Below are positions 6,896 to 10,028 of a stretch of 20,263 nt of DNA, piece by piece. The translations under genes and the position numbers were made by a program. The notes below the pieces were generated by a model, which worked only from the letters and a program-made list of their open reading frames with translations, did not search any database and was not told where the DNA came from. The first letter of the stretch is position 1, and each line of letters begins with the position of its first letter. Origin of the DNA: a virus. The stretch spans positions 1 through 20,263 of IMG/VR virus record IMGVR_UViG_3300012212_000033. The stretch is one strand, 5' to 3'.

Positions 6896-7345
6896 GTGGC
6901 AGGACCATATGCACCAAGCGATGATATCATAGGTCCCATTATACATGAGATTGCTCTGATTATCCAGACTGGTATACCTTCCATAGAATACGTCCATGAA
7001 AGAGTTCCTGATAGAGCACCAGCAAACAACCATGTGCTTCTTCCTATCTTGAAAATACACCAGCTAGATGACACAAATGGGAAGCTAAAAATACGCATAA
7101 CCATAGGTGCCAGGCATGTATTCAGGAGAACAGAGCTAGATGCAGGCATTACAAAGATGTACACATATATTATGCCATGGCTATTCTTAATAGCTGCGTG
7201 GCCTAATCAAACTTTGAATGGAAGAGCTATCCAGATGGAAATATCTGATGTTATACCTACAAGGATTATGGAGTCTGGACAGGCGTACATTGCGCTCGCC
7301 ATCAACTTCGATGTGCTAACCGAGTTTAATATACCACTGGTTTAA
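6896..7345 (+). CDS. Probable tail terminator / tail completion protein
   Basis: A 149-residue protein in the slot normally held by the tail terminator, which caps the tail tube and joins it to the neck. GTG 6896 has GGGGG (6883-6887) eight bases upstream. The protein begins with helices (IIGPIIHEIALIIQTGIPS), has a mixed centre, and ends in a strand, YIALAINFDVLTEFNIPLV, reminiscent of the last strand of gpU-like or minor tail proteins. I see no diagnostic motif, so the assignment rests mainly on gene order (connector, neck, this gene, tail tube) and on size. Confidence 0.55.
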   Translation: MAGPYAPSDDIIGPIIHEIALIIQTGIPSIEYVHERVPDRAPANNHVLLPILKIHQLDDTNGKLKIRITIGARHVFRRTELDAGITKMYTYIMPWLFLIAAWPNQTLNGRAIQMEISDVIPTRIMESGQAYIALAINFDVLTEFNIPLV

Positions 7346-7766: not shown

Positions 7767-8129
7767 ATGGCAGGCATTAGACAAGAAACCATCATTAACA
7801 ACGCCTCATTCACTACCACTGTGACATCTCCAGCCTTACCAAATGACGGTCGTGCTTCCTGGGTACTCCTTTCTAAAGTGGGAGCTATAACAACCACCCC
7901 TACCATGACCGTATCCATTTTGGGTAGTTTGGATGGCACCAATTTCTACACCATAGACACTCAAACCGTTATTAATACCGCCAATGCCACGCAGCGCACC
8001 GTCTACGGGTCTTCAACTACAAAGGGTCCTATACTTGAACCATACATACAAGTCGTAGCAACCTTTGGTGGTGTGGGGAACTTCGCGAACACTATCGTGG
8101 CACTGTTTGGTGGCGGCTATCAGTACTAA
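7767..8129 (+). CDS. Small beta-rich structural protein B (120 aa), unknown
   Basis: A 120-residue beta-rich protein seven bases after protein A, started by ATG 7767 behind GGGGTG. The pattern ASWVLLSKVGAITTTPTMTV, then SLDGTNFYTIDTQTV and YIQVVATFGGVGNFANTIV, parallels protein A, suggesting divergent duplication. The TPT-TV-I-GS-DGTNFY stretch is the kind of beta-sandwich repeat found in small phage structural proteins. It ends in a Gly/aromatic tail (FGGGYQY). Its place between terminator and tail tube suggests a virion component. Function is not known. Confidence 0.6.
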   Translation: MAGIRQETIINNASFTTTVTSPALPNDGRASWVLLSKVGAITTTPTMTVSILGSLDGTNFYTIDTQTVINTANATQRTVYGSSTTKGPILEPYIQVVATFGGVGNFANTIVALFGGGYQY

Positions 8130-8133
8130 CCTC

Positions 8134-8147
8134 GGAGGTGTACTATC
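8134..8147 (+). promoter_or_regulatory. Strong ribosome site in front of an ATC start codon
   Basis: GGAGGTG at 8134-8140 is an almost ideal Shine-Dalgarno sequence. No ATG, GTG, TTG or CTG in the tail-tube frame lies between the previous stop (8127-8129) and 8208. The codon at optimal distance (six bases after GGAGG) is ATC at 8145. A GTG at 8138 overlaps the site itself and reads only six codons to a stop. This site decides the tail-tube start. Confidence 0.65.
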
Positions 8148-9101
8148 GCAATTTCTAAAAAGGCCTGGTTTGGCACTGCCAAGGAGGTTACCCCCGGTAC
8201 GTCGGTAGTGCCTTCTACGAAGTACTGGCCTACAAAAGCAACATTTAAGGGTGGTAAGAAGAGGGAGTATCTCAACGAAGAGCGTGGAGACCGTAACGCA
8301 AACTATGGCGTTGTGGACTCCGTGAGACAAACAGCAATGGACACGAAAGGCCCGTATTATCCAGACGTGTCTCCTATTGCTCTATGGGCTGGGTTTGGCC
8401 TGCCTACGTCTACGCAACCTTCCGCTGGTCCTGATCCTACTGTTTGGAAACATACATTTAATCTGGTAGACGTGCCACCATCCTACACCCTAAATAGGAG
8501 CATAGATGCGAAGACGTATACTGTGCCTTATGGGGTGTTGGAAAAATGGTCTTTACACTTCGCAGCAGACGGAAAGCTTCTTGAGATGGATAGTAGCTGG
8601 CTTGGTCTTTTCGCCAGCATTTACGCATCTCCTCCTAGCCCTACCTATAGCACGGTACTTCCTATGGCAGGGTATGCTCCTATTATTAAGTTTATTGACG
8701 GGGCTACCTCTACAGACGTGATGGATATGCAGATTGACTATGCACAAAAAATCACGTTATGGTATCCCGCAAATGGCGCACCGGACTTTGTTACCGTCTA
8801 CTTTGGAGAACGTACTCTCAAGGTAGATATGACTGCCAGATTCGATAATGACGTGCTGTATCAGCGCTGGAGAACGAACACCTTGGACTCTCTGAACTTT
8901 GATATCCAGGGAAGTATTATATCCAATGCACTTGCACATGAATTGAATATACAGATACCTAACCTGTCTTGGGATACTATGGAGCATGACATGTCTAAGG
9001 ACAACGTGCTTATCAAGGCAAAGGGAACTGCTATTGTTCCTTCTGGGGCGTCTTTAGTCACGGGCTTTGTACAGAACACCGTAGCCTCCTATACAACGTA
9101 A
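8145..9101 (+). CDS. Major tail tube protein, apparent ATC start
   Basis: Subunit of the tail tube, 318 residues with the ATC start. The N-terminus reads (M)AISKKAWFGTAKEVTPGTS, the classic tail-tube opening (AW-G-E-TPGT), followed by PTKATFKGGKKREYLNEERG and later EKWSLHFAADGKLLEMDSSW, also family-like. Starting at the first standard codon, GTG 8208, would delete this N-terminus; AAGGAGG at 8181-8187 lies 20 bases before that GTG, too far to serve it well. ATC 8145 is six bases after GGAGG, so I infer a rare AUC start (or a base error for ATG). The end overlaps the next ATG (TAATG). It lies upstream of the chaperone pair and tape measure gene, the canonical order. Confidence 0.8.
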   Translation: MAISKKAWFGTAKEVTPGTSVVPSTKYWPTKATFKGGKKREYLNEERGDRNANYGVVDSVRQTAMDTKGPYYPDVSPIALWAGFGLPTSTQPSAGPDPTVWKHTFNLVDVPPSYTLNRSIDAKTYTVPYGVLEKWSLHFAADGKLLEMDSSWLGLFASIYASPPSPTYSTVLPMAGYAPIIKFIDGATSTDVMDMQIDYAQKITLWYPANGAPDFVTVYFGERTLKVDMTARFDNDVLYQRWRTNTLDSLNFDIQGSIISNALAHELNIQIPNLSWDTMEHDMSKDNVLIKAKGTAIVPSGASLVTGFVQNTVASYTT

Positions 9102-9304: not shown

Positions 9305-9723
9305 AAGATACTCAGGAGCCTCTCTTATTCGAGGATTACTTTAATAGCCCGGAGGCTCCGGGTGTAGAAATAGAGGTAATGCATAAAGGGAAGGTAGTGA
9401 GGCTGAGGGTAAAGAAGTCGCTTACCCTGGATGAGATGCAGCAAGCTACTGACGCAGGGGTTGCTATCGCACTCGACAAAGAGGGTAATCCTACTATTAC
9501 GAAGATGAATCAGGGAGCATATAGTAAGGCTATTGTGCTGGCCGGAGTGCGCTCTTGGCCGTTTACCAACCCTGATGGAAGTCCTGTACCCTTTACTAAG
9601 GCGAACGTAAACATTATGGATGGTGTGCTAGCAGAGAAGATTGCAACTGCTATTCTAGGCAATAGGGCGGTGCAGCAGCAGGCTATTGTCCCTTTCGCAG
9701 AGAAGTTAAAAGAGGACTCCTAG
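9280..9723 (+). CDS. Tail assembly chaperone, G-type product
   Basis: Counterpart of lambda gpG: a non-structural chaperone that coats the tape measure protein before tube polymerisation. It has an acidic N-terminus, a small beta domain (VEIEVMHKGKVVRLRVKKSL), then LTLDEMQQATDAGVAI and a helical end with VRSWPFTNPDGSPVPFTKAN and QQAIVPFAEKLKEDS, the usual pattern for these proteins. ATG 9280 has GAGGGG (9265-9270) nine bases upstream, giving 147 residues. An in-frame ATG at 9238 would add fourteen hydrophobic residues. Its last codons overlap a long open -1 frame carrying the T extension. Confidence 0.8.
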   Translation: MGSTQEPLEDTQEPLLFEDYFNSPEAPGVEIEVMHKGKVVRLRVKKSLTLDEMQQATDAGVAIALDKEGNPTITKMNQGAYSKAIVLAGVRSWPFTNPDGSPVPFTKANVNIMDGVLAEKIATAILGNRAVQQQAIVPFAEKLKEDS

Positions 9724-10028
9724 CGGGTGGATCGGCAAACCCAAGAATTGCAGTAGGGACATTTGGATTTCGCTATGCCTGCTATAAGGAATTTGGCTGG
9801 ACACCGGAGACAGTGGCAGGGCTTCCTGAGAGTGAGGCTAGAAAAATTGCAGTCACCTTGGAGGAGTCCTGGGGCTATGAGTATCGTGAGCAGAGGAAGC
9901 AAAGGAACGAGTCAGACTACCCTTCTGGATTACGTGAAGGATTTGAAGAGGATTTTGTCTTCGGGGACGACGACGATGCTGATTACTGGGATAGACCAGA
10001 CATTTTAGAGGGGAGACCAATAGAATAG
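9280..10028 (+). CDS. Tail assembly chaperone, GT-type frameshift product
   Basis: Predicted fusion made by -1 frameshifting near the end of the G gene. The -1 frame is open from 9666 to the stop at 10026-10028, overlapping the last 55 or so bases of G. If the slip occurs after the AAA codon at 9709-9711, translation continues at 9711 as RGLLAGGSANPRIAVGTFGF and then KEFGWTPETVAGLPESEARK; the product is about 249 residues (144 + 105). The T segment has the usual W-P--V--LP--E---I helical pattern and ends in an acidic tail (DDDDADYWDRPD). In lambda the T domain binds tube subunits while G binds the tape measure. The T segment lacks its own well-placed ribosome site; a GTG at 9813 is internal. 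Confidence 0.75.
9705..9711 (+). other. Candidate -1 ribosomal slippery heptamer GTTAAAA
   Basis: In the G frame the bases read G-TTA-AAA. After a one-base backward slip the codons are GTT-AAA, with perfect re-pairing in the A site and partial re-pairing in the P site. A related GTTAAAC heptamer is a known nidovirus shift site. The G stop lies nine bases downstream (9721). Any 3' stimulator is weak: GGGT (9725-9728) could pair with ACCC (9739-9742). No better heptamer is apparent in the overlap 9666-9720. Confidence 0.6.

Follow-up and report, generated by a model that had tools for sequence, protein, structure and literature searches.

Does the tail tube gene of this phage begin at an ATC codon? 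The window analyzed here, a whole IMG/VR record of 20,263 bases in linear form, carries portal (PF04860), capsid (PF25209), tail, and lysin (PF01183) genes in the order of a siphophage, and we regard its phage as soil-type. An earlier note on this DNA had proposed that the tube gene starts at ATC 8145, behind a near-ideal Shine-Dalgarno (SD) site, with a misread ATG as the main alternative. To our knowledge, AUC starts are known from only a handful of genes, most of them regulatory. The literature that we searched yielded no phage gene with an AUC or AUU start.

The start region and the product of the tube gene

Direct reading bore out the near-ideal GGAGGTG site. Read from the TAA of the upstream gene, the tube frame runs CCT CGG AGG TGT ACT ATC(8145) GCA ATT TCT AAA AAG and first meets an ATG, GTG, or TTG codon at GTG 8208, and the reading that opens at GTG 8138 ends after six codons (GTG TAC TAT CGC AAT TTC TAA), both as the earlier note had described. 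The context directly before the ATC is cGGAGGTGTACT-ATC, translation from this codon gives IAISKKAWFGTAKEVTPGTS, and the stop codon of the gene lies at 9099-9101. Among the 947 ATH triplets on the plus strand of the window, three have SD pairing this strong: 8145, 8151, which shares its SD with 8145, and 6245, an internal site. Since ATC 8145 also falls exactly on the aligned start of homologues, its placement is unlikely to be due to chance. Searching the window for Rfam families, tRNAs, and repeats gave no matches.

Table 1. Features of the tube start region and of a second tail-module gene in the window
Feature	Position	Strand	Basis or remark
g149, tail-module gene, name unassigned	6896-7345	+	GTG start in window, ATT in L027, ATC in L022
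TAA, stop of upstream 120-aa gene (7767-8129), in frame with tube gene	8127-8129	+	Direct reading
GGAGGTG Shine-Dalgarno; GGAGG-to-ATC gap 6 nt; hexamer AGGTGT at 8136-8141	8134-8140	+	Duplex energy -13.4 kcal/mol with 16S tail
ATC, probable start codon of tail tube gene	8145-8147	+	Aligns with homologue ATG/GTG/TTG and with ATC of L026 and L027
Tail tube protein gene, 318 codons plus stop	8145-9101	+	PF18906, AlphaFold2, fold matches
ATT codon 3, near-cognate alternative start; less likely	8151-8153	+	SD spacing 12 nt; off homologues' aligned starts
GTG, residue 22, first in-frame canonical start; judged a non-start	8208-8210	+	SD -4.6 kcal/mol; loss of conserved residues 1-21

By Pfam and by predicted fold, the product is a siphophage tail tube. 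It matches PF18906 (Phage_tube_2) with 57.3 bits against a curated cutoff of 27 (E value, 2.4e-15), and an AlphaFold2 model built from a 17-sequence alignment (pLDDT, 87; pTM, 0.84) returned tail tube folds in Foldseek (8xan, TMq 0.70; 8ed0, TMq 0.72; E values below 1e-11), the best structural matches being the tubes of SH-Ab15497, P74-26, and T5. The window gene resembles these siphophage tubes in fold and gene order and, at low sequence identity to them, is unusual only in its start codon. The earlier note had also read the N-terminus as the conserved one of tail tube proteins. This holds among the relatives found here, which keep the motif MxISKKxW...A.E.T.GT, but the PF18906 match begins only at residue 10. 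Toward the C-terminus, tubes of L006, L007, L008, L009, L021, L026, and L027 carry an insertion of ~90 residues, which may be an extra surface domain and which is lacking in those of the window, L004, and L012.

The same N-terminus bears on the possibility that translation begins at GTG 8208, the first canonical codon and the start that the open reading frame (ORF) list assigns, yielding a protein without its first 21 residues. Such a protein would lose residues 3 to 19, which are conserved even in relatives at about 40% identity, as well as the first predicted strand of the model (residues 9 to 13). The GTG is preceded by a weak SD, and the first canonical start in L026 falls at a different residue. 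We therefore regard this start as extremely unlikely.

Start codons of homologous tube genes

Direct searches for close relatives with the tube and the terminase gave no matches; the first relatives came from a portal search, and profile searches with portal, tube, and capsid brought the set to about 20 related contigs, to which a final scan with g149 added no new ones. Related prophages were found in Ktedonobacteria, in 3 of 47 genomes, among them Thermosporothrix. The host, which may be a soil bacterium resembling Ktedonobacteria, is inferred from these prophages at about 45 to 51% identity and is uncertain.

Aligning the tube N-termini showed that ATC 8145 coincides with the starts of the homologues. 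In 15 distinct homologues, ATG, GTG, or TTG stands at the aligned position or one codon away. The aligned codon is ATG in L004, L005, L007, L008, L010, L011, L012, L021, L034, L042, and L077, GTG in L006 and L009, and TTG in L030, while ATG lies one codon earlier in L032 and L033 and, similarly, one to a few codons earlier in L047 and L049. Two separately assembled contigs, L026 and L027, have ATC at this very codon. Their ATC lies behind AGGAGGTG with the spacing found in the window, GGAGG being 6 nt from the ATC in all three; the bases before the start read ctAGGAGGTGTGAT-ATC and the context AGGAGGTGTGAT-ATC.

L026 and L027 are about 95% identical, yet distinct. Within codons 2 to 22 they differ at 13 codons, of which 12 differences are synonymous (including TCA/AGC for Ser) and 1 is nonsynonymous, whereas the ATC and the 40 nt upstream are unchanged. 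Synonymous change downstream of an identical ATC and leader indicates that the gene is coding from codon 2 and that the ATC has been retained, and purifying selection acts from codon 2 onward. The tube gene therefore shows what we looked for in an AUH start: no canonical codon at the aligned start, coding constraint right after the AUH, and recurrence in relatives, here as tube ATC in L026 and L027 and as ATT or ATC in g149 of L027 and L022.

In the tube tree, the window groups with L021, an ATG tube (support, 99/97), while L026 and L027 group in another clade with L006 (GTG), L007, and L008 (both ATG; support, 99/99). Because the ATC tubes fall in different supported clades, ATC either arose twice or was replaced several times; given the close kinship of L026 and L027, tube ATC counts as two lineages only. 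The SD and the ATC also stand behind different upstream neighbors, since the 120-aa gene separates g133 from the tube in the window and the tube directly follows g133 in L026 and L027. Between the latter two contigs, around L026 7192-7290 and L027 10302-10400, the 100 bases upstream of the tube are identical, the first 75 tube bases share 72 to 84% identity, and the rest about 92%; a recombination edge at the tube start codon is possible.

These alignments also bear on whether ribosomes enter the tube gene by reading through TAA 8127 or by shifting frame from GTG 8138. TAA 8127 does share the tube frame and GTG 8138 does open six codons, but the upstream gene of L026 and L027 ends in another frame, and the GTG corresponding to 8138 in these contigs runs straight into TGA. 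The +1 shift, which the earlier note had held less likely, is rejected on the latter ground. With a strong SD lying in between and no conserved slippery or readthrough signal, neither route is credible to any appreciable degree. Initiation at codon 3 (ATT 8151 in the window, ATC or ATT in L026 and L027) deserves little more credence. This codon is likewise near-cognate, and all three ATC genes have ATH there; however, its SD spacing is 12 nt rather than 6, the aligned start of the homologues is elsewhere, and Ile is simply conserved at this residue in homologues that start with ATG.

Shine-Dalgarno strength and a second tail-module gene

Calculated with a generic bacterial 16S tail, SD energies were -13.4 kcal/mol for the window tube and -14.1 and -14.1 kcal/mol for L026 and L027, compared to -5.1 to -8.5 kcal/mol for 12 ATG tubes, with no overlap between ATC and ATG tubes; the value for GTG 8208 was -4.6 kcal/mol. 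A GTG tube, that of L006, is also strong (-13.7). The chance that both ATC lineages would rank strongest among 14 tubes is ~0.01 if kinship among the ATG tubes is ignored, which is suggestive but not overwhelming. In prokaryotes, the weaker starts GUG and UUG tend to go with stronger SDs (PMC5622118). The pattern here is alike in that a weaker start codon accompanies a stronger SD, but it differs in that the codon is AUC or AUU and in that the gap between ATC and ATG homologues amounts to several kilocalories per mole. Judging by the strong SD, the phage makes up, at least in part, for a weak codon.

We compared the N-termini of the window's gene families over 20 contigs. Noncanonical starts appeared only in the tube and in g149, plus an ambiguous case in g153. 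g149 starts with ATC at L022 12342 and with ATT at L027 8962, while near relatives begin with ATG or GTG; in L027 and L022 no canonical codon precedes them in frame, and the nearest downstream ones lie 47 and 37 codons inside. The g153-family gene at L028 7945 (contig G051) has two candidate starts, an ATC behind GGGAGGTGG and a GTG within that SD; the ATC is ambiguous because the GTG lies three codons upstream. A separate observation concerns the g71 family (window 9723-10028), in which all relatives conserve [AS]CYxEFxW ahead of the first canonical start, a pattern to be expected if g71 were made by ribosomal frameshift from the preceding g161 (a tail assembly chaperone pair); a slip site was not located.

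The hexamer AGGTGT occupies positions -9 to -4 before all five ATY starts (four distinct contexts) but only 1 of 364 canonical starts of called genes in 15 contigs; the ATY starts came from homology before the hexamer was noticed, and this comparison is post hoc. Over the whole DNA, AGGTGT-N3-ATY occurs at 7 sites against about 4 expected from base counts and is not clearly enriched. Scanning 14 contigs for RGGTGT-N3-ATH, together with a codon scan behind strong SDs, revealed no further convincing starts. We also considered a minimal "GTG-stop" ORF, as GTG TGA or GTG TAA lies just ahead of ATY in three of the four contexts. We dropped this idea, as the window has GTG TAC; moreover, the GTG belongs to the SD, and the tally is low and was made after the fact. 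A more far-reaching proposal, which we consider doubtful, is that AGGUGU-N3-AUY is a dedicated initiation context by which this phage group keeps tail-module genes (tube and g149) under constant translational control; the context would be repeatedly gained and lost between relatives, and host IF3 or start-codon strictness would determine how much of the tail subunits is made, or when.

Taken with the tube ATC in two other phage contigs, the ATT and ATC starts of g149 in two contigs make it unlikely that base 8147 was misread in sequencing or assembly from a true ATG. Most homologues have ATG, and base 8147 rests on a single contig. However, this codon is ATC in two other assemblies too, behind an SD of the same geometry, and the window's SD matches those of the other ATC tubes in strength and exceeds all values among the 12 ATG tubes. 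A base error, which the earlier note held to be the main alternative, is now very unlikely.

Probable initiation at AUC and its meaning

We conclude that the tail tube gene is most probably translated from AUC 8145 by fMet-tRNA, aided by a strong SD (probability of about 0.87). This reading agrees with the earlier note, and it is supported by L026 and L027, which carry ATC at this codon behind an SD of the same geometry. Its prior is low, since AUC is not among the start switches listed in a reconstruction from 61,358 ancestral AUG starts (PMC5622118). In the proposed mechanism, GGAGGUG at a favorable distance would hold the 30S subunit, and fMet-tRNA would then start on AUC despite the third-position mismatch, so that the product would begin (f)M-AISKKAWFGTAKEVTPGTS. 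We infer that Met is inserted at the AUC and that initiation from it would be weaker than from AUG.

AUU and AUC starts are repressed by IF3 (PMC5472188), and initiation at AUC 8145 is probably IF3-sensitive. Fidelity mutants of infC are reported to increase noncanonical initiation 3- to 15-fold (PMC5472188). On the basis of this IF3 biology, it is plausible, as the earlier note suggested, that the codon limits tube output or makes it depend on initiation factors (PMC5472188). Known genes offer partial parallels. infC, the IF3 gene, starts at ATT in E. coli and at ATC in Streptomyces and is repressed via IF3 codon discrimination (PMC5472188). It shares a natural AUH start with the tube, but it is a cellular autoregulated factor gene, whereas the tube is a phage structural gene whose link to IF3 is presumed. 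Streptomyces sigR likewise has a noncanonical start, GTC, which sets its ratio to a neighboring gene under IF3 control (PMC5472188); the tube codon is ATC, and the tube has no known stoichiometric partner. A regulatory purpose of the AUC start in tube dose or timing is a guess. The phage may gain from reduced or IF3-tuned tube synthesis, or it may simply have tolerated a mutation thanks to its strong SD.

ORF callers restricted to ATG, GTG, and TTG shorten such proteins by 15 to 47 residues, and standard callers would shorten g149 in L022 and L027 by about 40. AUC starts are already known, as in Streptomyces infC; here the AUC would lie on a major virion protein, with further cases in relatives and in another tail gene. 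As a single codon of one gene family is variously ATG, GTG, TTG, or ATC, these phages provide natural paired contexts in which SD strength can be tested against start-codon identity.
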